From positions 1-45,015 of the forward strand of contig BLLT01000006.1 of assembly GCA_011958945.1 (NCBI GenBank): a stretch of 45,015 nt of DNA. The letters are read 5' to 3'. The notes under the pieces are model-generated. The model was not told where the DNA came from. It ran no database searches and saw only the letters and a list, made by a program, of their open reading frames with translations. Position numbers and translations under genes: made by a program. Shown here in pieces: positions 5,478 to 41,324 of this stretch (the stretch's first letter is position 1; every line of letters starts with the position of its first letter). This stretch comes from Lachnospiraceae bacterium. Lineage in GTDB: Bacteria; Bacillota; Clostridia; Lachnospirales; Lachnospiraceae.

Positions 5478-6416
5478 ATGGTAAAAAGGGAAGAAATATA
5501 TTTTGACTCCAGGGATAATAAAAATAAAATTCATGGGATACGTTGGATTCCGGAGGGGGATAAACCGCTATGCATTTTGCAGATTATCCACGGTATGGCT
5601 GAGTATATAGGGCGGTATGATGAATTTGCGGAAAGGATGGCGGAAAAAGGCATTTTGGTAGTGGGTGAAGACCATCTGGGGCATGGCAAATCCGTTAGTG
5701 AAAACGGTACATACGGCTATTTTTGCGAGCAAGATTCCGCTACTGTAGTAGTCAGAGACTCCCATAGGCTGAAGAAGATGACGCAGGAGAAATACCCGGG
5801 GGTTCCTTATGTGGTTCTTGGGCACAGCATGGGTTCCTTTATATTGAGGAATTATTTATGCCGGTATGGAACGGGTATCCAAGGGGCAGTGATTGTGGGA
5901 ACAGGAATGCAGCCCAGGCCGTTGTTATGGATGGGGAAGGCCGTGGCGGCGGTGCAGAAGGTATTCTGCGGTTCCAGGCATCCCAGCGGCCTGCTGAACG
6001 CGCTGTCATTTGGCAGTTATAATAAGAGGATTCCGGGGCATAGGACAGTGATGGACTGGCTGACCAAGGAAGAAGGAATTGTGGATGCATATATTGAAGA
6101 CCCTTTATGCGGATTTACTTTCACGGTGAACGGTTTTCAGACTTTACTGGAACTGGTAAACAGACTGTATAAGAGGGAGAATCTGAATAAGATGCCCAGG
6201 GAACTCCCCGTACTTTTTGTATCCGGTGCGGAAGACCTGGTAGGCGATTACGGGAAAAGCGTGGAAAAGGTATACCAGTCGTTTCTGGACATGGGAATGA
6301 AAAACGTGCAGATAAAACTGTATGAAAATGACAGGCATGAACTGCTCAACGAGAGCGACAGGGAAAAGGTGTACAAAGATATTTATAGGTGGATGCAGTC
6401 GGTGATATCGTTTTGA
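5478..6416 (+). CDS. Alpha/beta hydrolase, monoacylglycerol-lipase-like (Hydrolase_4)
   Basis: A 312-residue cytoplasmic serine hydrolase of the lysophospholipase / monoacylglycerol lipase type. Visible motifs are the oxyanion-region HGMAEYIGRYDEFA, the nucleophile elbow GHSMGS (Ser at about residue 116), the acid in SGAEDLVGD and the general base in NDRHELLN near the C-terminus, giving a complete Ser-Asp-His triad. Family members cleave esters of monoglycerides or lysophospholipids; the actual substrate is unknown. ATG 5478 is favoured over 5472 because GGGAGG ends at 5470, leaving 7 bp to the second ATG but only 1 bp to the first. The gene is followed after 36 bp by the DUF1002 gene on the same strand. 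Confidence 0.88.
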   Translation: MVKREEIYFDSRDNKNKIHGIRWIPEGDKPLCILQIIHGMAEYIGRYDEFAERMAEKGILVVGEDHLGHGKSVSENGTYGYFCEQDSATVVVRDSHRLKKMTQEKYPGVPYVVLGHSMGSFILRNYLCRYGTGIQGAVIVGTGMQPRPLLWMGKAVAAVQKVFCGSRHPSGLLNALSFGSYNKRIPGHRTVMDWLTKEEGIVDAYIEDPLCGFTFTVNGFQTLLELVNRLYKRENLNKMPRELPVLFVSGAEDLVGDYGKSVEKVYQSFLDMGMKNVQIKLYENDRHELLNESDREKVYKDIYRWMQSVISF

Positions 6417-6452
6417 GGCATTAACAGTAAAATATATGGAAATGAGGAGAAA

Positions 6453-7394
6453 ATGAAAAAAATTATGAAGACATTTATGAAAAGAATTTTATGTGTGGCG
6501 GCGGTGTTATGCCTGGCAGGAATTGTTAATTTTCCGGTTCATGCCCAGGAGGGGAAAATAGTGGTAGCCCTGGGGGCGGATTTATCCGCTGAGCAAAGGG
6601 CAACGGTGTTGAGCCTGATGGGGATTACGGAGGAACAGCTTGCCGGATATGAAGTTATTTATATCACTAATGCGCAGGAGCACCAGTACTTGGATGCCTA
6701 CTTGGATGCTTCCGTTATCGGGAGCAAATCCCTTTCCAGCGTTATGCTGAAAAAAGGAGCCAAAGGCAGCGGTGTGAATGTGACCACTAAGAACATTAAC
6801 TATTGTACTACGGGGATGTACCGGAATGCGCTTTTGACCGCCGGTGTGCAGGATACAGAGGTGATTGTGGCAGCACCTACCCAGATTTCAGGTACCGCAG
6901 GGTTAATCGGTGCGGTAAAGGCTTATGAGAAAGTAGAAGGTACGGCAATTTCGGATGCCTCCCTCTCCAGCGCCCTGGACGAACTGATTACTACAGGGCA
7001 ATTGGCAGATGCGGCACAAAATGTGAGCAATGACGAAATCGAAGAATTAATTGCCTATATTAAAGAAAAAGTGGCCAATGGGGAACTGGAAACAGATGCG
7101 GACGTGCGGGCTGCCATTGCGGAAGGGGAACAGAAATTCGGCGTAACTCTTTCGGAAGAAGAAATTGAGAAGATTGTAAGTCTGATGAACAAACTCAGAG
7201 GTATGGGGCTAAACAGCGAATATTTAATCAGCCAGGCGGAGAAACTTTATAATAAATATGGGGCTGACCTTGTGAACCATGCGGATGAGGCCATCAGCGA
7301 AGCTGTGAGCGATGCGGTAAATGGTGCGGCAAAAGGCTTTTTCCAGAGTGTGAAAGACAGCGTAAAAGAATTTTGGAACAGCCTGTTCTCATAA
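6453..7394 (+). CDS. DUF1002 (YpuA-like) secreted protein
   Basis: A 313-residue exported protein with a signal peptide (basic start, hydrophobic core, end near PVHAQ). The body matches the DUF1002/YpuA family: LMGITEEQL, a YITNAQEH(Q)YLD segment, IGSKSLSS, the NINYCTTGMYRNALLTAGV block and VAAPTQISGTAGLIGAVKAYE. A helical C-terminal half follows, ending in an amphipathic segment. Function of the family is not known; members are common in spore formers and Lachnospiraceae. GAGGAG is only 3-4 bp before the ATG, so in-frame ATGs at 6465 or 6477 remain possible starts, each leaving a usable signal peptide. Confidence 0.85.
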   Translation: MKKIMKTFMKRILCVAAVLCLAGIVNFPVHAQEGKIVVALGADLSAEQRATVLSLMGITEEQLAGYEVIYITNAQEHQYLDAYLDASVIGSKSLSSVMLKKGAKGSGVNVTTKNINYCTTGMYRNALLTAGVQDTEVIVAAPTQISGTAGLIGAVKAYEKVEGTAISDASLSSALDELITTGQLADAAQNVSNDEIEELIAYIKEKVANGELETDADVRAAIAEGEQKFGVTLSEEEIEKIVSLMNKLRGMGLNSEYLISQAEKLYNKYGADLVNHADEAISEAVSDAVNGAAKGFFQSVKDSVKEFWNSLFS

Positions 7395-7515
7395 GGATTC
7401 AAAGAAAAAGAGAATAAGAGATATGATTTGTGTAAATGATAAAGCTTGTAATCCGGAGGTTGGAGTAAAAAATAAACGGAAGTTCACAGGTTAAGAGAAA
7501 GGCATGGTTATTAAA

Positions 7516-8505
7516 ATGAAAATTGCATTTTATGGAACAAAGGCGTATGATAAAATTTGGTTTGAGCCGTTGGCCAAAGATTATGGGTTTGAGATTCGAT
7601 TTATTGAACTGCCCTGCAATGAAGAAACTATATTTCTTGCAAAAGGATACGATGCAATCTGCATTTTTGTCAATGATTATGTGAATGCAGAGATGATAAA
7701 CCAACTTTATGAAATGAAGGTAAAAGCGATTCTGCTCAGAAGCGCCGGCTTCAACCACGTGGATGTGAAAGCGGCAGAGGATAAGATAGTTATATTGAGA
7801 GTACCCAGCTATTCACCGGAGGCGGTGGCAGAATATGCAATGGCATTATTGCTTACGGTGAACAGGCGTACCCATAAGGCATATAACCGTACCAGGGATT
7901 TCAATATGAGCCTTCACGGGCTGATGGGCGATGACCTGAACCATAAAGTGGCAGGCGTTATCGGTACAGGAAAAATTGGCCAGGCAATGATTCACATTCT
8001 GAATGGCTTTCAGATGCAGGTGCTGGCTTATGACCCCTATCCGGTAAAGGGGCTGGAAGCGGAATACGTGTCGATTGAAGAACTGATGCGCAAATCGGAT
8101 GTGATTTCCCTTCATTGCCCGTTGACTGCAGCCACGAAACACATCATAAATAAGGAAACAATTGCTATGATGAAGGATGGAGTCTACCTGATTAACACAT
8201 CCAGGGGGAGTCTGATTGATACAGAGGCCTTGATTGCCGGACTGCTGGATAAGAAGTTCGCCGGGGTGGGGTTGGATGTTTATGAGGAAGAAGAGGGGAT
8301 TTTCTATGAGGACAGATCCGGTGACATTATAGAGGATGAGAATCTGGCAAGGCTGGTGACCTTCCCTAATGTGCTGATTACTTCCCATATGGGCTTTTTC
8401 ACTACGGAAGCGATGCAGGCGATTGCCATAGAAACGTTGGAGAATGCATATGCTTTGGAGAATGGGCTGCCTTTGCTGAACCGGGTAGGGGTGGAAGCGG
8501 GCTGA
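7516..8505 (+). CDS. ldhA: D-lactate dehydrogenase (D-2-hydroxyacid dehydrogenase family)
   Basis: A 329-residue NAD-dependent dehydrogenase reducing pyruvate to D-lactate in fermentation. The N-terminus MKIAFYGTKAYDKIWFEPL is typical of D-LDH. The Rossmann motif GTGKIG lies near residues 149-154 with the NAD-selecting Asp in AYDPYP. Catalytic Arg is in NTSRGSLIDT (about 230), Glu in the VYEEEEG segment, and His in TSHMGFFT (about 290). Length fits the family. The family N-terminus argues for ATG 7516; an in-frame ATG at 7504 sits only 1 bp after the purine-rich ribosome binding site. D-hydroxyisocaproate dehydrogenase or VanH-like activity cannot be excluded, but neither vanA- nor vanX-like neighbours are present. 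Confidence 0.88.
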   Translation: MKIAFYGTKAYDKIWFEPLAKDYGFEIRFIELPCNEETIFLAKGYDAICIFVNDYVNAEMINQLYEMKVKAILLRSAGFNHVDVKAAEDKIVILRVPSYSPEAVAEYAMALLLTVNRRTHKAYNRTRDFNMSLHGLMGDDLNHKVAGVIGTGKIGQAMIHILNGFQMQVLAYDPYPVKGLEAEYVSIEELMRKSDVISLHCPLTAATKHIINKETIAMMKDGVYLINTSRGSLIDTEALIAGLLDKKFAGVGLDVYEEEEGIFYEDRSGDIIEDENLARLVTFPNVLITSHMGFFTTEAMQAIAIETLENAYALENGLPLLNRVGVEAG

Positions 8506-8548
8506 CGGTCCGATGGAGAGCCGCCAGAAGCCAGGAAGGGATGAGGGG

Positions 8549-9028
8549 ATGAAAGAAACAGAATTTCCGTATGAAATCCGTTTGGCGTATCGAGAGGAAT
8601 GGGAAGATGCAATGGCATTGGCCTGGAAAACCTTTCTGGAATTCGAGGCAGATGACTATACGCTGGAAGGCATTAGAAGCTTTGAAGATTTTATTACGGA
8701 TAATACGCTGTACCGTATGTTTATTATGGGGGCATACCCGATGTTTGTGGCAGCGGATGGAAAACGGCTGGCCGGTATGATAACGGCAAGGAGCAATGCC
8801 CATATTTCCTTGCTGTTTGTGGACCGGGAATATCATAGGCAAGGCATAGGAAGGGCTTTGATTAGGAAGCTGTGTGAATATTTAAGAGGGGAATCGGGCG
8901 TTCGCCGGGTGACGGTGAACGCCGCCCCGTTCAGTACTGGATTTTACCATAAGGTTGGATTTGTGGATTTACAGCCGGAACAGACATCTTCCGGCATCCG
9001 GTATACTCCAATGGAACTGCTTTTATAA
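8549..9028 (+). CDS. GNAT family N-acetyltransferase
   Basis: A 159-residue acyl-CoA-dependent acetyltransferase. Its GNAT core is visible: N-terminal strand IRLAYREEWEDAMALAWKTF, central beta strand HISLLFVDREYHRQGIGRALI containing the acetyl-CoA pyrophosphate loop (R/Q-x-x-G-x-G/A as RQGIGRA), and the C-terminal VTVNAAPFSTGFYHKVGF motif typical of the last helix. The acceptor is unknown. ATG 8549 is chosen because AGGAAGGGA ends about 8 bp upstream; an in-frame ATG at 8513 has no good site and would overlap the region just after the D-LDH stop. The gene is close behind ldhA and just ahead of the YesL-like gene, suggesting a loose transcription unit. Confidence 0.85.
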   Translation: MKETEFPYEIRLAYREEWEDAMALAWKTFLEFEADDYTLEGIRSFEDFITDNTLYRMFIMGAYPMFVAADGKRLAGMITARSNAHISLLFVDREYHRQGIGRALIRKLCEYLRGESGVRRVTVNAAPFSTGFYHKVGFVDLQPEQTSSGIRYTPMELLL

Positions 9029-29804: not shown

Positions 29805-30135
29805 GGGAAATCAATTTTCAGTGGCAGCACAGGGGCCGGCGCCCTTTGGGGCAGTGGCCTGGCTGCACGAGGGTGGGTTTTTCGACTAGGCAAAAAAAGC
29901 AGATTTCACTAATGAAATGGTTGTAGGAATTGGAATGCGGACGGGTCAGAAGCACGGGCATCCTTGCCCTGGCTTCTTGAAAACGCCATCCATGGCGTTT
30001 TCCCCCTGGGTATTGGCCATTTCATAAGTGAAATTTCTGCTTTTTTTGCAATAGTCGCAAAACCCATCCCTGTGCAGCCAGGCCACTGCCCCAAAGGGTG
30101 TCGGCCCCTGTGCTGCCACTGAAAATTGATTTCCC
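29805..30135. repeat. 331-bp near-perfect palindrome (large foldback element)
   Basis: The left arm (about 29805-29920) and right arm (about 30015-30135) are inverted copies with few mismatches, opening with GGGAAATCAATTTTCAGTGG on the left and its complement on the right. The loop of about 94 bases holds further stems, AGAAGC...GCTTCT and AAAACGCCAT/ATGGCGTTTT. No protein is encoded with a ribosome binding site. As RNA this would be a very stable hairpin of over 100 bp; as DNA it resembles a foldback MITE. No target duplication is obvious at the edges. Confidence 0.85.
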
Positions 30136-30362: not shown

Positions 30363-30637
30363 AAGAACTGGGGGAGAACTGGGGGGTGGCTTGACGGGGG
30401 AATTGTGGCTGTGATAAACTTTTTGGTATGTAGGGGAGTGGTTTGGGGATGGAAAATCGGATATTTTTGGATTTGTTTCTGTGGGCAATGAGGCGGGCGG
30501 CCGTATTGGTGCGGATTCTTGGAGGTTGCCGTAAGGAATAGGTAGTAGGCAGTCTGTTTTCTGGGGAATTAAATTTTATGTTGTGTGGTTTGGGATGGAT
30601 GTTGGATGGGATGATTGTTAGTGAAGGGGATGCGCCG
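30363..30637. other. Non-coding tract before the histidine kinase
   Basis: No supported gene. G-rich on the plus strand. It must contain the promoter of the sensor operon, but no convincing -35/-10 pair stands out. Confidence 0.5.
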
Positions 30638-32116
30638 ATGGCTGAAGAGAAAATAAGGTATCCTTTGAAAAATAAGTTGATTGTTTTGATACTTGTGGCG
30701 ATGGTGCCGATTCTTTATATTACGATTTATTTGATTATGGCGCTTTTGAATTATAGCAGGGCTTATGACCGGATTGTAAGTAGTATGACGGTTGCTAATA
30801 ATTATAATATGAATTTTAAAGAGGAGATGGATGAGAGTCTTTATAAGCTGGTGGTTAGTAATGTGACTTTTGATACGATTGAGGAGGACGGAACGTTAAA
30901 GGATCCTTATAAGTTGATAGAGGAACTGAGGGGCGGGAGTAATAATTTGTTGGCGATGACGACGGATAGGGATAGCCGTGTCTGGCTGCAGAGCCTTCTG
31001 CGGAATGTGGATACGCTGGAGGATAGGGTGGAGGATATTAAGGCGAATCAGGAGGCGGAGGGGCAGTATGAAAAGAATATAGATATGCTGTATAATGATA
31101 TTTATATTTTGACTGAGCTGATACAGGATGATATCCAGTATTATATTTATTATCAGACCAGGAGCATTGAGCAGTTAAAGGTTCGTCTTAATACGGAAGT
31201 GGAACATGTGATTCTGATTAGTATATTGCTGGGGGGATGTATTGTTGTCTGTGTAATTTTAATTACCAGTGCCATTTTAAACAGTATTACAAAGCCGATT
31301 CAGGAACTTTGCAGGATTACCAGCCGGATTGCGGAGGGGAATTTTTCGGATAGGGCGAAAATGGAGACGAAGGATGAGTTGGAGGTGCTTTCCCACAGCG
31401 TCAATGATATGTCGGAAAATCTGGAAGTTATGGTGCATCAGATTAAGGAGGATGAGAGGAAGATGCGTTATGCGGAGCTGCGGCTTTTGCAGGAGCAGAT
31501 TAATCCTCATTTTCTGTATAATACGCTTGATACAATTGTCTGGCTGATAGAAGGGGATGACCCGGATAAGGCGGTGGATATGGTGGTGGCGCTTTCGGAG
31601 TTTTTCCGTCTGGTGCTTAGCAAGGGGAAGGAATATATTTCTATCCGGGAGGAAAAGGAGCATATCCGGGGGTATTTGGAGATTCAGCAGGTGCGTTACC
31701 GAGATATTCTGGATTATGAGATTGATATAGACGAGGAATTGTATCAATATAAGATTTTGAAGCTGACGCTGCAGCCGCTGGTAGAAAACTCTTTATATCA
31801 TGGTATTAAGTATAAACGGGCAAAGGGTAAAATATGGATTACAGGACGGATGGAGCCGGATGTAAATGCGGAAAATGATAGGCTTTTGTTGTGCGTGCAG
31901 GATAATGGAGTGGGGATGGACGAGGAGGAGTTAGAACGCCTGCGGATAGAAATTGGGAAACCGTGCAAAGAAACAGAACGGGGGTTTGGGCTGGCTAATG
32001 TGAATGAGAGGATTCGGATGAACTTTGGTATGGAATATGGGATGACGATTGAATCGGAAAAGGGTGTGGGAACAAAGGTGAGCATAGTCATTCCGGCCGT
32101 GAAGCTATTTGAATAA
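30638..32116 (+). CDS. YesM-type sensor histidine kinase
   Basis: A 492-residue membrane kinase. TM1 is at about residues 12-36, an extracellular domain of about 150 residues is mostly helical, TM2 is at about 187-215, then HAMP (ILNSITKPIQELCRI...), the His-kinase dimerisation box LLQEQINPHFLYNTLD (phospho-His near 290) and a HATPase domain with N-box LVENSLYHG and G-box DNGVGMDEEE, then ERGFGLANVNERI. The extracellular domain is helical and lacks an obvious dCache fold, so it may read a partner protein rather than sugar directly. ATG 30638 follows GAAGGGGA by 7 bp. It is grouped with the anchored binding protein and response regulator. Confidence 0.9.
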   Translation: MAEEKIRYPLKNKLIVLILVAMVPILYITIYLIMALLNYSRAYDRIVSSMTVANNYNMNFKEEMDESLYKLVVSNVTFDTIEEDGTLKDPYKLIEELRGGSNNLLAMTTDRDSRVWLQSLLRNVDTLEDRVEDIKANQEAEGQYEKNIDMLYNDIYILTELIQDDIQYYIYYQTRSIEQLKVRLNTEVEHVILISILLGGCIVVCVILITSAILNSITKPIQELCRITSRIAEGNFSDRAKMETKDELEVLSHSVNDMSENLEVMVHQIKEDERKMRYAELRLLQEQINPHFLYNTLDTIVWLIEGDDPDKAVDMVVALSEFFRLVLSKGKEYISIREEKEHIRGYLEIQQVRYRDILDYEIDIDEELYQYKILKLTLQPLVENSLYHGIKYKRAKGKIWITGRMEPDVNAENDRLLLCVQDNGVGMDEEELERLRIEIGKPCKETERGFGLANVNERIRMNFGMEYGMTIESEKGVGTKVSIVIPAVKLFE

Positions 32117-32172
32117 CCTTCGGGGGTGCTTTTGACGGAAAAGGCGGATAATGATAAAAAAGGGGAAAGCGC

Positions 32173-33222
32173 ATGAAAAAAATATTGGAAAAATTAGAAG
32201 AGATTTTTTTCGGGCATGTGGGTATATGTATCCTGCTGCTTTGTGTTGTACCTTTTATATTCGTTAGCCACGGGCTCTTTAGGGAGATTGAAGTAGAGCA
32301 GCAGCCCTTCGATGTGGGAACGGAAGATTTGATCGTGGTAGGGTTTTCCCAGTTGGGAAGCGAGTCGGGGTGGCGGACGGCCCATACGCTTTCGGTTCAG
32401 GAGGCGTTGACAAAGGATACGGGCTATTTCCTGATTTTTAACAATGCCAGACAGATGCAGGAAAATCAGATTAAAGCGATTCGAAGTTTTATTTCACAAA
32501 GGGTGGATTATATCGTATTTGCACCGGTGATTGAAAGCGGCTGGGACACTGTGCTACAGGAGGCGAAGGATGCCGGAATTCCGGTTATTATCATAGACCG
32601 TATGGTGAATATAAAAGATGATTCCCTCTATACTACATGGATTGGAACGGATGCCTGGGAAGAAGGAAGAAAGGCGGGGAGATGGCTGGAGGGATATCTA
32701 AGGGAAAAAAACAGACAGGCGGAAAGAATCAATATTGTGGTACTGCAGGGAACGATAGGCTCTACGGCGGAAATCGGCAGAAGCGAGGGATTTGAAGAGA
32801 TTGCCGCCATGCATGAAAATTGGCGTATTTTGGAATCTGCAACAGCGGATTTTACAGCCGCGAAGGGAAAAGAAGTGATGGCAGAAATGCTTTGCCGTTA
32901 TCCCAAGATTGATGTGCTGGTGTCTCAGAATGACGATATGACGATGGGGGCTATAGAGGCGATGCAGGAGGCCGGGGTCAGTTTTGGGGAAAACGGGCAG
33001 GTGGCGGTGATTTCCTTTGATGCCATCCGGGATGCCCTGGAAATGGTGGATGAAGGGCATATCAACGTGGATATCGAATGCAATCCGGTACAGGGGAGTT
33101 ATATTGACATGATTATTCAAAAGCTGGAAAATGGGGAACAGGTAGAAAGAAGTTACGTAGTGGAAGAAAATATTTTTACGAAGGACAATGTTGGCAGGTT
33201 TCTGGAGGACAGGACATATTAA
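32173..33222 (+). CDS. Membrane-anchored YtfQ-like sugar-binding protein (probable sensor subunit)
   Basis: A 349-residue periplasmic-binding-protein-fold protein of the YtfQ family: VVGFSQLGSESGWRTA, NQIKAIRSFISQRVDYIVF, APVIESGWDTVLQEAKDAGI, IDRMVNIKDDSLY, VVLQGTIGSTAEIGRSEGF and SQNDDMTMGAIEAMQEAG. Residues 16-36 form an uncleaved-looking transmembrane helix, with no lipobox of the kind in the importer's binding protein. It lies between the kinase and response regulator genes, 56 bp after the kinase. That location, the anchor and the paralogy to the gene at 36420 argue that it presents bound sugar to the kinase, as XylFII does for LytS in clostridial xylose sensing. Role is inference; family is secure. 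Confidence 0.88.
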   Translation: MKKILEKLEEIFFGHVGICILLLCVVPFIFVSHGLFREIEVEQQPFDVGTEDLIVVGFSQLGSESGWRTAHTLSVQEALTKDTGYFLIFNNARQMQENQIKAIRSFISQRVDYIVFAPVIESGWDTVLQEAKDAGIPVIIIDRMVNIKDDSLYTTWIGTDAWEEGRKAGRWLEGYLREKNRQAERINIVVLQGTIGSTAEIGRSEGFEEIAAMHENWRILESATADFTAAKGKEVMAEMLCRYPKIDVLVSQNDDMTMGAIEAMQEAGVSFGENGQVAVISFDAIRDALEMVDEGHINVDIECNPVQGSYIDMIIQKLENGEQVERSYVVEENIFTKDNVGRFLEDRTY

Positions 33223-33246
33223 TTTGGAGAGGGAGAGGGCAGGCGG

Positions 33247-34866
33247 ATGCTGAAAGTATTTTTGGTGGAAGATGAAAGTATTGTCAGGGAGGGGCTGAAG
33301 AACAATATCCCCTGGCAGGAATACGGTTACCAATTTATGGGAGAGGCGAGCGATGGGGAAATGGCGCTGCCAATGATACGGAAAATCCAGCCGGATGTTT
33401 TGATTACGGATATCAAAATGCCTTTTATGGACGGTCTGGCACTGAGCCAGATTGTTGCCCAGGAAATACCGGATGTTAAGATTATTATTATCAGCGGCTA
33501 TGATGAATTTGAATATGCGCAGCGTGCTATCCGTGTAGGTGTGGAACGGTATCTGTTAAAGCCCATTACAAGGGGGGCTTTACGGAAAGTGCTTTTGGAG
33601 ATACGGGAAAAGATAGAAACGGAAATGGAGCAGAAAAACTACCTGGAAACCTTTCAGAACGAAATGAAGGAATTTGAGGATTATGCCCGCAGAAATTTTT
33701 TGGAAAAGGTGTTTGGGGGCGTATTGTCCGTACAGCAGATTTATGAGGAGGCGGCGAAGCTGTCGCTGGAACTGGACGGCCCCTGCTATAACCTTGTGCT
33801 TTTGAACCTGCAAGTAAAGAGGCGGAATCCGGAGATGGCCATGCGTGAGCCGGAAGGGTTTGATAAGGTCAGGGAGGCATTGTTCCGGTATTTTATGCGG
33901 TTTCCCGAATATCTGGTCTTCCGTTGGAACATCAGCCTCTATGGGGTGCTGATAAAGGGTGAGGAAGAGCGGATGGAGGAATGGAAGGAACGCTGTATCA
34001 CCAATATAGAAAAGATTTGCACCGAAGAGGAAGATTCCATGGAGTGGTATGCTGCGGTGGGCGAAGCGGTGGGGAGGCTTTCCCTTCTGCCGGAGTGCTA
34101 TACGAAGGTAAACCATATACTGGCCCATAGATTTTTTAATCCTAAAAGGCATATCCTGACGGAAAAGGACGCGGTAGAGTTCCTGCCGGGAAAGGATACA
34201 AAAAGCTTTGAGGCCGTGGACAGTGCGAAGATGAATCCGGAGATTATTCAAGGATTTTTGAGGGAAGGAACCCAGGAAGAGACGGAGGATTTCGCAAGGG
34301 GCTATCTGGCAGGGGTGAAGGATGCGTTGGAATCCAGATTGTTTCGGGATTACTTGCTGTTAAATATACGTTTTACCATTATAAATTATATGGAAATGCT
34401 GGGGATTAGCCAGCAGGATTTCCTGGCGGAAGACGACAGCGAGAAGGTGCATGAGGCGTCCGTAAACGGCGGGGAACTTTATGATTATATGAAGGAACTT
34501 TTGGAAAGGGCCTTGATGCTGCGGGATAGGGAGAACGAAAATCAAGGCAAGCGGATATTGAAAAAAGCATTGGAATATATAGAGGAGAATTTCAGCGACG
34601 AATCGCTTTCTTTAAATAGCGTAGCGGGGGTCATCGGCGTCAGCGGGAATTATTTCAGCAGTGTATTTAGTCAGGAAATGAAAATTACCTTTATCGAATA
34701 TGTTACGAAAAAGCGTATGGAAAAAGCAAAAAAACTGCTGCGCCAGAGCGAAATGCATTCCGGGGAGATTGCGGCAAAGGTGGGGTATAAAGACCCCCAT
34801 TATTTCAGTTTTGTGTTTAAAAAGACAGTGGGCTGTACGCCCAGGGAATATAGGAATGGGAGATAG
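33247..34866 (+). CDS. YesN-type response regulator with AraC DNA-binding domain
   Basis: A 539-residue regulator. Receiver domain residues 1-120: acidic pair E8-D9, phospho-Asp D55 in VLITDIKMPFMDG, and the KP motif in YLLKPI. A long helical middle region follows. The C-terminal AraC-type double HTH (about residues 435-537) shows SLNSVAGVIGVSGNYFSSVF, a KKRMEKAKKLL linker helix and IAAKVGYKDPHYFSFVFKK. It would activate sugar-uptake genes when phosphorylated by the YesM-type kinase. The start is 24 bp after the binding-protein gene, with GGAGAGGG upstream. Confidence 0.93.
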   Translation: MLKVFLVEDESIVREGLKNNIPWQEYGYQFMGEASDGEMALPMIRKIQPDVLITDIKMPFMDGLALSQIVAQEIPDVKIIIISGYDEFEYAQRAIRVGVERYLLKPITRGALRKVLLEIREKIETEMEQKNYLETFQNEMKEFEDYARRNFLEKVFGGVLSVQQIYEEAAKLSLELDGPCYNLVLLNLQVKRRNPEMAMREPEGFDKVREALFRYFMRFPEYLVFRWNISLYGVLIKGEEERMEEWKERCITNIEKICTEEEDSMEWYAAVGEAVGRLSLLPECYTKVNHILAHRFFNPKRHILTEKDAVEFLPGKDTKSFEAVDSAKMNPEIIQGFLREGTQEETEDFARGYLAGVKDALESRLFRDYLLLNIRFTIINYMEMLGISQQDFLAEDDSEKVHEASVNGGELYDYMKELLERALMLRDRENENQGKRILKKALEYIEENFSDESLSLNSVAGVIGVSGNYFSSVFSQEMKITFIEYVTKKRMEKAKKLLRQSEMHSGEIAAKVGYKDPHYFSFVFKKTVGCTPREYRNGR

Positions 34867-34881
34867 CCCATAAGGGGGCGG

Positions 34882-35979
34882 CTAGAAATTCATTCCCTCG
34901 GACGGGGGCGCCCCGGCGCTCCGCTTGATGGTGAGGTGCCAGGGGAGTTTCTGGGAAGTGATGGGAGACCCCTTCATCAGCTTAAGGATACTTTCGGCGG
35001 CAACGGTTCCCATTTCGTGTTGTTTATGGGATAGGGAAGTAATCTGAATGGGCGAAAGGTCGTTTAAGTAGGAGTTGTCAAAGCAGACAACGCTAAGGTC
35101 TTCGGGAATTCGTATATTTTTGTAAGTCAATTCTTTTATAAGCCAGTAAGCGATTTCGTCATTATGGCAGACTATGGCTGTGGCATTCTTTAGCTGTTTT
35201 AGTATAAATTCCGACAAAAATCCCGTGTCCTGCTTTTTTTGCAAAGCAGTGAGCCTGGCAGTGTCGAAATGGCAGATGCGTTCTTCATCAAAAGGAAGCT
35301 TTTCATCCCGCAGTGCGGATAAAAGGCCAAAAAGGCGTTCTGTGCCTTGTATGTCATCATCTTTGAAAATGCCGGCTATTTTCTTATGGCCTAAAGAGGA
35401 GAGATACTTGCCCAGGTGGTAGCCGCCCCCATAATTATCATCTTTTATGGAAGGGAAATCGGGCATATTGCTGTAACTTCCATGGAAAAATAATATGGAC
35501 GTACCTTTTTCAAAAAGACGTTCATATAAATCATGGTTGGGTGTGGGAAGGCTTGTTTTGCAGCCTTCGCTTAAAATGCCGCGGACAGGATGCTCCAACA
35601 GTTCTTGCAGAATATCCCGTTCTTTGGAAATCTGGTTGTCCGTAACATAAACTGTGGTGCGAAAGCCTTTGGCCTGGAGGACGGCCCGCATATCCGCCAG
35701 GAGGGCGGGATAAATATGCTCCGCATCAGAACAGGCTAAAACCGCCACAGTATCTTTTTCCGGGCTGCCGGAAAGGCCGGTGGTATAAGAACCGCTGCCC
35801 TGCCGCTTTTCGATTAAATGTTCGTCTTCTAAAATGGAGAGGGCTTTCCGGACAGTCTGACGGCTGACCCCATATGTCCTGCAAAGGGCATCTTCCGTTG
35901 GAAGCCGGAAGGTATCTTTCGCATTTTCTGCTATAAGTTTTTTTAACAGTTCGGCGATCCGAATATACTTTGCAGGCAT
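34882..35979 (-). CDS. AraR-like repressor (GntR HTH plus LacI-type sugar-binding domain)
   Basis: A 365-residue hybrid repressor. The N-terminal winged helix (residues about 5-70) is GntR-type: RLPTEDALCRTYGVSRQTVRKALSIL and IEKRQGSGSYT. The rest is a LacI/periplasmic-binding fold with IVCHNDEIAYWLIKEL and LSVVCFDNSYLNDL, as in AraR of Bacillus. The effector is likely a pentose or related sugar, possibly the cargo of the adjacent importer. It is transcribed away from the importer across a shared control region, and towards the response regulator gene, from which it is separated by 15 bp. AAAGGGGA lies 7 bp before the ATG. Confidence 0.85.
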   Translation of the reverse strand: MPAKYIRIAELLKKLIAENAKDTFRLPTEDALCRTYGVSRQTVRKALSILEDEHLIEKRQGSGSYTTGLSGSPEKDTVAVLACSDAEHIYPALLADMRAVLQAKGFRTTVYVTDNQISKERDILQELLEHPVRGILSEGCKTSLPTPNHDLYERLFEKGTSILFFHGSYSNMPDFPSIKDDNYGGGYHLGKYLSSLGHKKIAGIFKDDDIQGTERLFGLLSALRDEKLPFDEERICHFDTARLTALQKKQDTGFLSEFILKQLKNATAIVCHNDEIAYWLIKELTYKNIRIPEDLSVVCFDNSYLNDLSPIQITSLSHKQHEMGTVAAESILKLMKGSPITSQKLPWHLTIKRSAGAPPSEGMNF

Positions 35980-36419
35980 AAAAAATCCCCTTTTCCATAA
36001 TGATTTGGTACAAAACGGTTTTCTGTAAAGACAGCATATAAGAAAAGAGCCATTAAGAAAAGTGAAAAATTTCTTGAATTATTCACTGGCAGCCTGTAAT
36101 TTTCTATATTTTATCAAAAGCAATTCTTATTTTGGTCAATTTGGCATAAGCTTTAAAAGGCGAAATCTGTAAAAAAGAGAGCACAAATTTTCGAAAATCT
36201 TAAAATATCAAACTAAATCGTGAAATATCCAAACAAAATGACAAAATTTGTATCAAAAAATGGCATAATAACTAAAAATTTGTATTGTTTATAAGAACGA
36301 AATCGTAAAAAGTGCACAAAAATCAGTTGCGTATAAAAATTATATCAGTTAAAGTAAATTTACGGAAACAGCAAAGGCTGTTCCGGCGCAAAAAAAATAT
36401 TCATTAGGGAGGAAAGAAA
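35980..36419. promoter_or_regulatory. AT-rich divergent control region of the repressor and sugar importer
   Basis: About 440 bp without a gene. Three TTTGTA-type half sites are present: ATTTGGTACAAAA (36003-36015, minus-strand TTTTGTAC), AATTTGTATCAAA near 36244 and AAATTTGTATTG near 36278. These could be repressor sites of AraR kind, but none is a full palindrome. A leader hairpin CGGAAACAGC-AAAG-GCTGTTCCG (36363-36386) sits before the GGGAGG site at 36407-36412 and may stabilise the mRNA. Promoter hexamers cannot be fixed with confidence. Confidence 0.45.
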
Positions 36420-37535
36420 ATGAAGAAAAAAATTGCGTTATTATTAATGGCTGCAATGACAATTTCCACATTGGCTGCATGTGGCAATTCGGCAGCAGAA
36501 CAGGCTCCGGCATCAACGACAGAAGAGGCACCGGCAGAAGAAGCAGCACCTGAGGAAGAGGCACCGGCGGAAGAAGCAGCACCTGAGGAAGAGGCGCCGG
36601 CAGAAGAAGCGGCACCGGCAGCTGACGGTGAACTTATTACAGTAGGATTTGCACAGGTTGGCCATGAATCCGACTGGCGTGCAGCTAACACAAAGAATTA
36701 CCAGGATACTTTCAGCGAAGCAAACGGCTATGAATTATCTTTCGTAGACTGTGACAATGACCACGCTGTACAGATCGAAACGGTCCGCGGCTTCATCGAG
36801 CAGGAACTTGATTACATCTGCATCGCTCCGATTCAGTCCGCAGGCTGGGATACGGTTCTTCAGGAAGCACAGGATGCAGGCATCCCGGTTCTGATTGTTG
36901 ACCGTGCAGTGGACGCAGACCCTTCTCTGTATACAACGGCTCTTGGGTGCGATATGGTTGCTGAAGGCGAAGCAGCAGGAAACTGGCTGGCTGAATACCT
37001 GAATGGCGAAGCAGCGAACATCCTCGTTATCGAAGGCTCTGTTGGCGCATCCGCAACACTTGGACGTACAGAAGGCTTTAACAATATTGTGGCAAATAAC
37101 TCTAACTGGACAGTTCTTGATTCCCAGTCCGGTGACTTTACACAGGCTGGCGGACAGGAAGTTATGGAATCCTTCATTAAATCCTACAGCGATTTCAACG
37201 TAGTTGTATGCCAGAATGATAACGAAGCATACGGCGCAATGGACGCAATGGATGCAGCAGGCATTACATACGGCGTTGACGGCGATGTAACCATCATTTC
37301 CTTTGATGCTACTCATGACGGACTTCAGTATACACTGGATGGCAAAATCACCTGTAACGTAGAGTGTAACCCTCTGCAGGCTGGTTTCGCAGAAGAAGTT
37401 ATTAAGAAACTGGAAGCCGGCGAAGCAGTAGACGCATGGACGCTGGTTAAAGACGAAGCTTTCGTAGCACCTGGTATTGAAAGCGCATATGCAGTAACTA
37501 TGAGCCAGGAAGTACTGGATGGCCGTGCTTACTAA
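36420..37535 (+). CDS. ytfQ: Sugar ABC transporter substrate-binding lipoprotein (YtfQ family)
   Basis: A 371-residue lipoprotein. The lipobox TLAAC puts the lipid on Cys 21. It is followed by an acidic Ala-Pro-Glu tether of repeats (EEAAPEEEAPA). The mature domain is a YtfQ-type pentose/hexofuranose-binding protein: VGFAQVGHESDWRAANTK, ETVRGFIEQELDYICIAPIQ, SAGWDTVLQEAQDAGIP, SVGASATLGRTEGF and QNDNEAYGAMDAMDAAG. In E. coli YtfQ binds galactofuranose; arabinofuranose-like sugars are possible here. Codon bias (GTT, ACA, GAA, CGT) indicates high expression, and a hairpin after the gene would keep its transcript more abundant than that of the downstream membrane genes. Confidence 0.9.
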   Translation: MKKKIALLLMAAMTISTLAACGNSAAEQAPASTTEEAPAEEAAPEEEAPAEEAAPEEEAPAEEAAPAADGELITVGFAQVGHESDWRAANTKNYQDTFSEANGYELSFVDCDNDHAVQIETVRGFIEQELDYICIAPIQSAGWDTVLQEAQDAGIPVLIVDRAVDADPSLYTTALGCDMVAEGEAAGNWLAEYLNGEAANILVIEGSVGASATLGRTEGFNNIVANNSNWTVLDSQSGDFTQAGGQEVMESFIKSYSDFNVVVCQNDNEAYGAMDAMDAAGITYGVDGDVTIISFDATHDGLQYTLDGKITCNVECNPLQAGFAEEVIKKLEAGEAVDAWTLVKDEAFVAPGIESAYAVTMSQEVLDGRAY

Positions 37536-37726: not shown

Positions 37727-39244
37727 ATGGAAAATAATGTTATTTTAAGTATGAAAGGAATTTGTATGACATTCCCCGGTGTAAAAGCGTTGGAAAATGT
37801 GGATTTTAATTTAAAAAGAGGTGAAATACGTGCGCTCATGGGGGAAAATGGCGCCGGAAAATCCACGCTGATTAAATGTCTTACTGGGGTAAACAAATTT
37901 GAGTCCGGAGAAATTTACCTGGATGGCATCAATGGGCCTATTGTGAATAAGGATACCATGGATGCCCAGAAAAAAGGGATTTCTACGGTTTATCAGGAGG
38001 TGAATCTCTGCCCGAACCTTTCTGTAGCCGAGAATCTGTTCATCGGCAGAGAGCCTATGACAAAAATTGGAACGGTAAACCGAAAGAAGATGAATGAAAT
38101 GGCGGCAAAGCTGATGAAGGATCTGAATTTGGACATTGATGTGACCCAGAACCTGGAAGAGTATTCCCTGGCTTTGCAGCAGATGATAGCGATTGCCCGG
38201 GCGGTGGATATGGACTGTAAGGTTCTTATCCTGGATGAACCCACATCCTCGCTGGATGATAACGAAGTGGCGAAGCTTTTTGGCATGATGCGAAGGCTTA
38301 GAGGGCAGGGTGTTGGCATTGTTTTCGTCACCCATTTCCTGGAGCAGGTTTATGAAGTCTGCGATGGCATCACTGTTCTTCGGAACGGCACTCTCGTAGG
38401 GGAATACAGCATCGAGGAACTGCCCCGCGTGAAGCTGGTGGCAGCTATGATGGGTAAAGATTTCGATGATTTGGCGAGTATCAAGCCGGAAGGCAGCGGC
38501 GATAAATCCAAAGAGCCTCTTGTTATCGATGCAAAAGGATTGAGCCATGCGGGAACAATTAAACCTTTCGATCTGGAGATACATAAAGGGGAAGTAATCG
38601 GGCTGACCGGGCTATTGGGGAGCGGCCGAAGCGAACTGGCAAGAGCTATTTATGGTGCGGACAGGGCGCAGACCGGTACGTTAAAAGTAAAAGAACAGGA
38701 AGTGACGATTAAAAATCCTATCGATGCCATGAACCTGGGCATGGGGCTCTTGCCGGATGACAGGAAGGCGGAAGGGATTATTGGGGATCTGTCTGTCCGG
38801 GAAAATATTATCCTTGCCATGCAGGCGAAGCTGGGTATCTTCAAGAAGATTCCCATGTCGAAGCAGATTGAGATAGCGGATAAGTTTATCGAACTGCTCC
38901 AAATAAAGACGGCGAGCAGGGAAACTTTGATTAAACAGCTTTCCGGCGGTAATCAGCAGAAGGTTATTCTGGCAAGATGGCTGGCAACGAATCCGGATTT
39001 CCTGATTTTGGATGAACCCACCCGTGGTATCGACATCGGAACAAAGACAGAGATCCAGAAATTGGTTATCCAGCTTGCGGAAGAAGGCAAGAGCGTGATG
39101 TTCATTTCTTCCGAAATCGAAGAAATGCTAAGAACCTGTAACCGTATGGCAGTTCTTAGGGATGGCTCCAAGGTTGGTGAAATCAGCGGGGAAGAATTAT
39201 CCCAGGAAGGCGTTATGAAGGCGATTGCGGGAGGTGGAAAATAA
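37727..39244 (+). CDS. ytfR: Sugar ABC transporter ATP-binding protein (two ABC domains, YtfR/MglA type)
   Basis: A 505-residue tandem ABC ATPase. The first domain has Walker A GENGAGKST and Walker B KVLILDEPTSSLD; its signature is diverged (LEEYSLALQQM). The second domain has a degenerate P-loop region GLLGSGRSELARAIYG, a good signature LSGGNQQK and Walker B FLILDEPTRGIDIG. This is the RbsA/MglA/YtfR layout in which the two halves differ. It energises import through the two following permeases. AAGGAG precedes ATG 37727; the stop overlaps the next start codon by one base. Confidence 0.93.
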   Translation: MENNVILSMKGICMTFPGVKALENVDFNLKRGEIRALMGENGAGKSTLIKCLTGVNKFESGEIYLDGINGPIVNKDTMDAQKKGISTVYQEVNLCPNLSVAENLFIGREPMTKIGTVNRKKMNEMAAKLMKDLNLDIDVTQNLEEYSLALQQMIAIARAVDMDCKVLILDEPTSSLDDNEVAKLFGMMRRLRGQGVGIVFVTHFLEQVYEVCDGITVLRNGTLVGEYSIEELPRVKLVAAMMGKDFDDLASIKPEGSGDKSKEPLVIDAKGLSHAGTIKPFDLEIHKGEVIGLTGLLGSGRSELARAIYGADRAQTGTLKVKEQEVTIKNPIDAMNLGMGLLPDDRKAEGIIGDLSVRENIILAMQAKLGIFKKIPMSKQIEIADKFIELLQIKTASRETLIKQLSGGNQQKVILARWLATNPDFLILDEPTRGIDIGTKTEIQKLVIQLAEEGKSVMFISSEIEEMLRTCNRMAVLRDGSKVGEISGEELSQEGVMKAIAGGGK

Positions 39245-40308
39245 TGGATAAAATAAAAAAAATTACAAAAATGAAGCTATTCCTGCCAATCTTCAGCATG
39301 ATTCTCGTTATGATGATTAATGTGATTTACGATATTGCCAGCGGGAATGCCCCTTTTAGTTTCTTCTCAATCAGTATTAATAACGGTATTTTGTATGGGC
39401 GTCTCATTGATGTATTAAACAGGGGAAGTGAAGTGGCGATTCTTGCAATCGGCATGACATTGGTAGTATCCGCATCTGCAGGTACGGATATTTCAGTAGG
39501 ATCTGTTATGAGCTTGTCCGGCGGCTTATGCTGCATGCTTTTGGCAGGATACGGCGTAACCAATGTAAGTGAATATAATGTTCCCCTTTGGGTTGGCATG
39601 CTGGCAGGCATTGCAATCGCCTGCGTCTGCGGTTTGTTCAACGGATTTCTGGTGGCCTATATGAATATACAGCCCATGGTGGCTACGCTGATCCTCTGGT
39701 CGGCGGGCAGGGCAATCGGGCTTCTTTTGTGCAACAGCAATATCGTATACGTGCGTGTGCCTTCTTTCCAGTTCTTCGGGGCATATTGCGGCATCATCCC
39801 GACTCCGATTATTATTGCAGCAGTTTGTGTCGCTATAGCGGCTGTTATATTAAAAGTGACTGCGCTGGGAACATACATCCAGAGCGTAGGGATTAATAAA
39901 AAAGCTTCCAGGATTTCCGGTTTTAATTCGGCAAAAATTATCCTGCTTTGCTATGTGATTTGCGGTTTGTGCGCGGGCATTGCGGGCCTGGTTGCAACGT
40001 GCAGGATTTATTCTGCGGATACTAATAATATCGGCCTGAACATGGAATTGGATGCAATTCTTGCGGTAGCACTGGGAGGCAACAGCTTAGGCGGCGGTAA
40101 GTTCAATCTGGCAGGCTCTATTATTGGTGCTTATACGATTCAGGCCATTACCACAACACTGTACGCGCTTGGTGTTTCTTCCGCACAGGCACCTGTGTTT
40201 AAGGCGATTGTGGTTATCCTCATCGTAGTGATTCAATCCGGGCCGGTAAAAGATTATTTCAAAAAACTGTCCGCGAAAAAAGCAGCAAAGGAGGCGGTAC
40301 AGGCATGA
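39244..40308 (+). CDS. ytfT: Sugar ABC transporter permease, YtfT-like
   Basis: A 354-residue inner-membrane permease of the RbsC/YtfT family with about ten hydrophobic helices. Motifs: ILAIGMTLVVSASAGTDISVGSVMSLSGG and the C-terminal LDAILAVALGGNSLGGGKFNLAGSIIGAYTIQ loop that contacts the ATPase. The start codon overlaps the ytfR stop (TAATG) and the end overlaps the next gene by four bases (ATGA), so the three membrane-complex genes are translationally coupled. Confidence 0.92.
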   Translation: MDKIKKITKMKLFLPIFSMILVMMINVIYDIASGNAPFSFFSISINNGILYGRLIDVLNRGSEVAILAIGMTLVVSASAGTDISVGSVMSLSGGLCCMLLAGYGVTNVSEYNVPLWVGMLAGIAIACVCGLFNGFLVAYMNIQPMVATLILWSAGRAIGLLLCNSNIVYVRVPSFQFFGAYCGIIPTPIIIAAVCVAIAAVILKVTALGTYIQSVGINKKASRISGFNSAKIILLCYVICGLCAGIAGLVATCRIYSADTNNIGLNMELDAILAVALGGNSLGGGKFNLAGSIIGAYTIQAITTTLYALGVSSAQAPVFKAIVVILIVVIQSGPVKDYFKKLSAKKAAKEAVQA

Positions 40309-41324
40309 AAAAATTAAAACTGGGTGGAAACAATATATTGCTTGCAATTACGGTAGCACTGTTTGTAATCATGTATCTGGGCGGCTGCATAATTTATGCG
40401 GATAAAGGGTTTACCCATTTTCAGACATTTTTGAATGTGCTGATAAATAATGCGGGGCTGATTGCGGTGGCAGCCGGTATGACCTGCGTGATGCTGACCG
40501 GAGGAATTGATATTTCCGTAGGTTCCCTCATCGCTATGGACTGTATGCTGTTGGCGGTGGGCATGGAAGAATGGGGCATGAAGAGCCCGGTGCTTATGGT
40601 GATTGTGCTGCTTATCGGCTTGGTGTTCGGTTTGGTGCAGGGGTTTTGTGTGTCATATTTGGAGATACAGCCCTTTATCGTGACAATGGCGGGGATGTTC
40701 TTTGCCAGAGGTATGACGGCAGTGATTTGTAAAGACCAGGTAAGTATCGTCTCGGATAAGCTGTTTACGGCTATTTCCGGTGCGAAGATTAAGATTCCCT
40801 TTGGTGGGTATATGAATAAAAAAGGGGTTTATCAGGTGCCTTTTATCCGGCCGACGGTTATAGTGGCTTTGCTGGTTGTAATTTTTGTTTATCTGATGTT
40901 AAAGTATACGAAATTCGGCAGAAGCATTTATGCGGTGGGCGGCAATCAGGTATCGGCAACCCTGATGGGCTTGAATGTACGTAAAACGAAGCTTTTGACT
41001 TATACATTGAGCAGTTTTCTCACTTCTATCGGGGGTATCTGCTATTGTCTGAATACGATGTGCGGCACTACCACACAGGCAACGGGGCTGGAGATGGATG
41101 CGATTTCTTCGGCGGTTATCGGCGGAACGCTCTTAACTGGCGGTGTGGGCAATGTGCTCGGTTCCCTTGTGGGGGTGCTGATTAACGGTACGATTTCGAC
41201 CTTGGTAAAGACCAATGGGAAATTGGTGAGCTCCTGGGCCAATATTATTACGGCTATTCTGTTATGCTTCTTTATTCTGCTGCAGGCTGTGTTTGCTAAG
41301 ATTAAGGAAAGCAAGAAGGCATAA
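40305..41324 (+). CDS. yjfF: Sugar ABC transporter permease, YjfF-like
   Basis: A 339-residue second permease. VMLTGGIDISVGSLIAMD, EIQPFIVTMAGMFFARGM, YAVGGNQVSATLMGLNVRKT and LEMDAISSAVIGGTLLTGGVG closely fit YjfF rather than RbsC. Two different permeases with one double ATPase is the distinguishing layout of the YtfQRT-YjfF galactofuranose importer, supporting that assignment for the operon. The ATGA overlap with ytfT couples translation. A weak hairpin follows. Confidence 0.92.
   Translation: MKKLKLGGNNILLAITVALFVIMYLGGCIIYADKGFTHFQTFLNVLINNAGLIAVAAGMTCVMLTGGIDISVGSLIAMDCMLLAVGMEEWGMKSPVLMVIVLLIGLVFGLVQGFCVSYLEIQPFIVTMAGMFFARGMTAVICKDQVSIVSDKLFTAISGAKIKIPFGGYMNKKGVYQVPFIRPTVIVALLVVIFVYLMLKYTKFGRSIYAVGGNQVSATLMGLNVRKTKLLTYTLSSFLTSIGGICYCLNTMCGTTTQATGLEMDAISSAVIGGTLLTGGVGNVLGSLVGVLINGTISTLVKTNGKLVSSWANIITAILLCFFILLQAVFAKIKESKKA

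Follow-up and report, generated by a model that had tools for sequence, protein, structure and literature searches.

What does a sugar-binding protein do when it is encoded between a sensor kinase and a response regulator, beside an importer that has a binding protein of its own? The question is raised by a 45,015-nucleotide stretch of DNA (hereafter, the window) from a Lachnospiraceae bacterium (GenBank assembly GCA_011958945.1, contig BLLT01000006.1, positions 1 to 45,015 of the forward strand). In the window, a YesM-type histidine kinase, a membrane-anchored YtfQ/GafA-type protein and a YesN-type regulator lie in one row on the plus strand, separated by 56 and 24 nucleotides, and the transport genes ytfQRT-yjfF lie beyond them. 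A preliminary description made from the sequence had recognized this row, including the lack of a lipobox in the anchored protein, and all three assignments were confirmed.

The locus most likely (roughly 80%) encodes a binding-protein-dependent three-component furanose sensor, with L-arabinofuranose as the most likely ligand, which switches on ytfQRT-yjfF; the finding is real and the mechanism probably right in outline. The tethered GafA-type protein would capture the furanose and contact the kinase at its four-helix outer domain, and the signal would run via HAMP to the kinase core, which would phosphorylate the regulator, a protein with a receiver and an AraC-type domain; the regulator would then bind tandem repeats at 36194-36234 and turn on ytfQRT-yjfF, while a divergent AraR-like repressor would add an intracellular check. 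The earlier proposal of a three-component sensor is largely retained on the basis of gene co-occurrence, fold, pocket and the variation of the sensor with the outer domain; the absence of a lipobox as a trait of the system, an origin by recent copying and a relationship to XylFII in sequence are not. The features of the window are as follows.

30638-32116, plus strand: YesM-type sensor histidine kinase (Pfam HAMP, His_kinase, HATPase_c); order: first transmembrane (TM) segment, four-helix outer domain of about 160 residues (about 30734-31210), second TM segment, HAMP, His_kinase, HATPase_c
32173-33222, plus strand: membrane-anchored YtfQ/GafA-type sensor binding protein (Pfam Peripla_BP_4), GafA pocket residues intact
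about 32209-32274, plus strand: TM anchor of the sensor, uncleaved-looking
33247-34866, plus strand: YesN-type response regulator, Response_reg receiver and HTH_18/AraC DNA-binding domain (Pfam)
34882-35979, minus strand: divergent GntR-LacI regulator of AraR architecture (domain scan and solved relatives)
36194-36234, plus strand: tandem direct repeat of about 20 bp, candidate response-regulator site (motif comparison upstream of ytfQ)
36270-36291, plus strand: palindrome-like conserved block, candidate operator of the AraR-like repressor (from conservation)
36420-37535, plus strand: transport binding protein ytfQ/gafA with lipobox and GafA pocket (Pfam, NCBIfam)
37727-39244, plus strand: ytfR, ATP-binding cassette (ABC) ATPase (Pfam, NCBIfam)
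39244-40308, plus strand: ytfT, permease (Pfam, NCBIfam)
40305-41324, plus strand: yjfF, permease (Pfam, NCBIfam)

For the kinase, an alternative upstream ATG at 30578 is possible; GAAGGGG stands just 5' of 30638.

Conservation of the locus

Co-occurrence of the triplet with ytfQRT-yjfF across genomes, named as a check in the preliminary description, was found to be conserved both in gene neighbourhoods and in a reverse search with the kinase. In a search of 250 genomes of the family, 78, including that of the window, had a YtfQ-type match at 1e-40; these gave 90 neighbourhoods (89 and the window), whose gene order was read with phmmer. In class A (11 loci including the window), the order is kinase-sensor-regulator followed by the transporter, and the sensor lies between kinase and regulator in 11/11. 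A separate sensor is also present in class A2 (three loci), in class C (18 loci), where it lies mostly downstream of the permeases, and in class D (seven loci), where the order is sensor-kinase-regulator-transporter. Class B has a single binding protein, at the transporter, and includes L060, which has a diverged extra binding protein too. This class comprises 23 loci for gene order, 19 for pocket and distance tests (L058, L076, L102 and L110 have no measurable kinase) and 18 for the motif test (also minus L056). L035 has a kinase and sensor without an adjoining regulator, and 25 loci were left unclassified.

A scan of genome contigs yielded 17 loci. In 16 of them (Lachnospiraceae, Parablautia, symbiosum and others) the genes run kinase-sensor-regulator and the anchor is similar (FGHVG..LLC..P in most); the remaining one, L145, is an Oscillospiraceae lipoprotein adjoining a kinase. 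The transporter follows the triplet in 12 of the 16 near loci. The stretches of L137 and L138 end too early, and those of L135 and L139 contain no transporter behind the triplet and a more distant sugar transporter upstream. The kinase frame of L140 is broken; broken frames were left as they are.

The kinase, used as query, matches 90/250 genomes at 1e-60. Among 115 listed matches, 68 begin at query residue 27 or before. For 64 of the 68, the same contig has a YtfQ-type match, and the remaining four are at a contig end or adjoin a binding protein; the other 47 begin at residue 148 or later and are mostly longer frames of about 600 residues. In the genome of the window (G000), contigs C133 and C231 carry distant sugar-binding proteins near YesM-type kinases with frames of about 600 residues.

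Sensor, pocket and sugar

The best NCBIfam model of the sensor is YtfQ NF041827 at 256.8 bits, under the equivalog cut-off of 510, as is the window transport protein at 233.9 bits; among solved proteins, the sensor is closest to GafA/YtfQ proteins (235 bits). Its own genome has no close matches other than the sensor and ytfQ, and the one that follows has 27% identity. The description of the sensor as a YtfQ paralogue is right as to family; a recent duplication of the adjacent ytfQ was rejected because the two sit in different parts of the tree. Membership of the XylF family, or orthology to XylFII, was likewise rejected (5xsj, 36.9 bits against 235 for GafA; TIGR02634, 49.5 bits with a cut-off of 389.55).

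The N terminus of the sensor is a hydrophobic helix, and in the anchor, KKILEKLEEIFFGHVGICILLLCVVPFIFV, a Cys is preceded by LLL without a lipobox. Acylation of this Cys is doubted because the near relative L134 has Phe at that position; other near relatives keep the Cys. Of the 12 rows in the tree clade to which the window sensor belongs, eight have a lipobox-like Cys and four do not, as counted by eye, the automatic lipobox pattern having overlooked lipoproteins such as L039 (ALCGC) and L048 (CTGC). Tethering is therefore common and its form varies, and the lack of a lipobox, true of the window sensor, is a trait of its near relatives and not essential to the system. The sensor alignment has 26 rows and, of the 17 contig-scan loci, omits L131, L144 (broken sensor frame) and L145.

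Apart from four contacts named for GafA, the pocket sites were chosen on what we take to be their homology with ribose-binding protein. At 11 positions the window sensor and the window ytfQ are identical to all three solved GafA proteins (2vk2, 5ocp, 6hyh), with F7, E13, W16, R17, D90, R91, R146, F170, N199, D227 and E246 in 2vk2 mature numbering. The named contacts, in the available part of the source, are a Trp, a Phe, Arg38 and Asp111 in precursor numbering (PMC10191376).

An intact GafA pocket agrees with the galactofuranose/arabinofuranose type proposed earlier, and the choice between the two depends on other genes. L-arabinofuranose is favoured over galactose because the repressor is AraR-like and because AraA, AraD and FGGY genes stand near relatives of the locus. 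The divergent regulator combines a GntR DNA-binding domain with a LacI-type effector domain, and its best solved relative is AraR (3tb6, 132 bits; next, 62.7). Over the 90 loci, recurrent neighbours include FGGY kinase (24), AraD (23) and AraA (19), clusters named from one representative each (NCBIfam, Pfam), and these genes adjoin GafA-type and changed-pocket transporters alike. In the genome of the window, an AraD gene just above cut-off (390.6 against 389.1) adjoins an FGGY kinase gene, and there are GH51 and GH43 matches. Of 15 further genomes from the genus, 10 have AraA, in one case partial. The same three-component mechanism with D-galactofuranose or another sugar as ligand, which differs from the preferred explanation in the sugar only, is a possible but doubtful alternative in the light of these genes. 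It draws on the report that both furanoses fit GafA pockets with identical contact residues (PMC10191376, part of the text), on the failure to find AraA in the genome of the window (a 709-contig assembly) and on the absence of arabinose catabolic genes among the window proteins scanned.

Coupling of the sensor to kinase, importer and promoter

For the outer domain of the kinase, AlphaFold2 predicts a bundle of four helices (predicted local distance difference test score 94.3), and a Pfam scan found no sensor domain in it, in line with the earlier view of this region as helical and unlike a sugar-binding domain. The top structural match of the model is the LytS domain (LytSN) of XylFII-LytS, tied with other helix bundles; the XylFII-LytS parallel drawn before thus agrees with the predicted fold. 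A profile search of the outer domain against the PDB gave weak matches only. The outer-domain alignment covers 66 of 73 kinase frames, omitting three with an outer domain of more than 180 residues, three lacking a predicted pair of TM segments, and L121.

Distance tests used 39 or 58 of the 90 loci. In the 39 separate-sensor loci, outer-domain distances correlate with those of the sensor at r 0.828, a value reached by 0/2000 permutations; the corresponding values are 0.144 for the transport protein, 0.272 for YtfR and 0.367 for YtfT. With YtfR, r is 0.942 for the transport protein and 0.377 for the sensor. For class B (19 loci), r between the outer domain and the single binding protein is about 0.38. 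Two results call for caution: outer-domain distances follow those of the kinase core in the same protein (0.728) and of the regulator (0.655) as well, and with the core held constant the sensor-outer domain value is 0.581 for all 39 loci, 0.416 for class A, 0.085 for A and A2 together and -0.007 for class C. Kinase, regulator and sensor therefore travel as a module joined to different transporters, and contact between sensor and outer domain is inferred.

The pockets vary along with this arrangement. Among 72 transport proteins, 36 have Trp at 170, of which 34 have Tyr at 16 and 35 have Gln at 246. Such changed pockets (Trp 170) occur in 32/39 separate-sensor loci versus 0/19 class B loci (Fisher p 7e-10); the four outside the separate-sensor loci belong to L121 (diverged separate protein), L036 and L062 (sensor on another contig) and L122 (no sensor). 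The separate sensors mostly retain W16, E246 and F or Y at 170, exceptions being L049, L094 and L112 (Tyr 16) and L104 (Gly 246). Seven separate-sensor loci, the window among them, have a GafA-type transporter. On the kinase tree, the changes number 6 and 9, and four independent pairs on well-supported branches are never reversed, a sign test being powerless here (median p 0.25). The comparison of loci is a natural experiment in which the sensing pocket is mostly kept and the import pocket changes.

It is conceivable, and suggested only tentatively, that the ring form of the sugar now divides sensing from import, the GafA-type sensor reading L-arabinofuranose and the binding protein of the importer, changed in pocket in most separate-sensor loci (Trp to Tyr, Phe to Trp, Glu to Gln), taking another form, perhaps the pyranose. 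The window, with both pockets of GafA type, would then be an unsplit stage. If so, the furanose, just freed by arabinofuranosidases, would be a signal of fresh hydrolysis, and the chemoreceptor that carries this outer domain in a single genome would suggest that such a signal can steer swimming too.

A role of the anchored protein as a second transport receptor of the same ABC importer, with the kinase sensing alone, is improbable: the extra protein does keep the full sugar pocket and is, for most of class C, encoded 3' of the permeases, but its distances follow the outer domain (0.83) and not YtfR (0.38), which the transport protein follows at 0.94, it lies between kinase and regulator throughout class A, and it mostly retains the old pocket where that of the transporter has changed. 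Least probable is direct ligand binding by the outer domain, as in chemoreceptor bundles, with the binding protein merely modulating, for although the matches tied with LytSN include ligand-binding domains such as Vc1313 with D-arginine, and CuaSR perceives cellobiose without CuaD, less efficiently (PMC10384115, part of the text), the outer domain is nearly restricted to loci with YtfQ-type proteins, and in genome G176 the kinase frame without an outer domain goes with no separate sensor match.

That G176 locus, L122, has a changed-pocket transporter and a kinase frame of only 254 residues, as if sensor and sensing domain had been lost together. In a distant genome (G621), a chemoreceptor gene directly 3' of yjfF (L172:5309-7039) encodes an outer domain of the same four-helix family as the kinase of that locus; judging from the sequence, one binding protein may signal to both kinase and chemoreceptor.

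As to the output of the three-component sensor, a tandem repeat (window copy AAAATCTTAAAATATCAAACTAAATCGTGAAATATCCAAAC, 36194-36234) and a palindrome-like block at 36270-36291, TACAAAAATTTGTATTG in most relatives, are common to the regions upstream of ytfQ in 13 loci, namely the window and 12 near ones. A motif matrix built from these 13 loci was applied to held-out loci, with 200 column-permuted matrices as control. Its best place in the whole locus is upstream of the transport protein in 7/10 held-out class A loci (permuted mean 2.35, 0/200 as good), 10/18 class C loci (permuted mean 3.54, 0/200) and 8/18 class B loci (3/200), and in 2/3 A2 loci (17/200), in L036 (1/1; 54/200) and in 2/7 class D loci (40/200). 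In the 5.07-megabase genome of the window, the tandem-repeat pattern has one match at three or fewer mismatches, namely 36194-36234, and the reversed control none. The genome-wide search with the operator pattern gave further matches at three mismatches only, and a promoter scan was at chance level. The regulator would be paired with the tandem repeat, and the AraR-like repressor may have its operator in the block at 36270-36291. In the intergenic stretch 29815-30125, 5' of the kinase, inspection by eye showed a long inverted repeat (CAGTGGCAGCACAGGGGCC... and its complement).

YtfQ-type proteins were also seen beside other signalling genes. In L074:235-1518, L081:7275-8549, L082:5390-6673 and L098:6958-8244 (stop-to-stop frames), a YtfQ-type lipoprotein frame stands 4-11 nucleotides ahead of that for a membrane GGDEF protein, which the outer-domain profile does not match, as if such sensors served diguanylate cyclases too. 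Chemoreceptor-like genes adjoin YtfQ-type proteins at L080:3946-5682 and 6896-9019 (the latter being the one scanned with Pfam), L082:8821-10509, L099:7072-8790, L101:9036-11075 and L105:1858-3882; the L082 row comprises regulator, kinase, transporter, chemoreceptor-like gene, two GafA-pocket proteins and a GGDEF gene. Frames of 630-687 residues with two YtfQ-type domains (L111:5582-7480, L065:5888-7777, L115:5064-7124) lie near kinases with a longer outer domain, which is dCache in L111, the one of the three scanned. L047:7518-9272 has a zinc ribbon at its start and a C-terminal YtfQ-like domain, and the preceding frame (5715-7496) is also weakly YtfQ-like.

Comparison with known systems

The locus comprises kinase, sensor, regulator, promoter motif and importer and is testable with few purified parts. 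It is relevant to the way in which Lachnospiraceae of the gut may sense arabinose set free from dietary fibre, and to the recruitment of binding proteins from transport to signalling. The characterized GafA/YtfQ proteins (2vk2, 5ocp, 6hbd) are alike in family and pocket residues and differ in serving transport. The sensor protein 2x7x (71.8 bits) is alike in having a periplasmic-binding-type domain in a sensor; we take it to be BT1754 of B. thetaiotaomicron, a fused hybrid kinase, that is, one polypeptide instead of three genes.

An arabinan study in Geobacillus, Shulami 2011, is said to have dealt with AraPST. AraPST and a YesM-YesN/PF13407 locus of Parageobacillus are likened here by description, not sequence: each is an arabinose locus with genes for a binding protein, kinase and regulator (PMC4194401, PMC13068155, both in part). 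The Parageobacillus protein is likewise described as a non-lipoprotein, and that locus differs in its ChvE-like transport protein (PMC13068155, same part). CuaDSR of Ruminiclostridium cellulolyticum resembles the window in its sensor binding protein, a kinase outer region without a predicted domain, a regulator with receiver and AraC domains, and a neighbouring ABC operon with its own binding protein; it differs in that CuaD is a cellobiose lipoprotein of 410 residues when mature and that the kinase outer region has about 266 residues by the stated helices (PMC10384115, part of the text).

In the literature searched, including the available portions of PMC3899296, PMC9601137, PMC4428132 and PMC10766802, no GafA-type furanose sensor with a kinase was recognized, and the word "kinase" is absent from the available text of the GafA paper (PMC10191376). 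Among the closest systems is XylFII-LytS-YesN of Clostridium beijerinckii (5xsj/5xsd), for which a dedicated binding-protein paralogue, a kinase with a small helical outer domain and a second binding protein for transport are likewise reported, in part in PMC10384115 and PMC6321045; the window sensor differs in its GafA lineage (235 versus 36.9 bits) and furanose pocket. Overall, binding-protein-dependent three-component sensing is known, and what is new is a sensor of GafA lineage, with a TM or lipid tether, that is kept apart from the binding protein of the importer.

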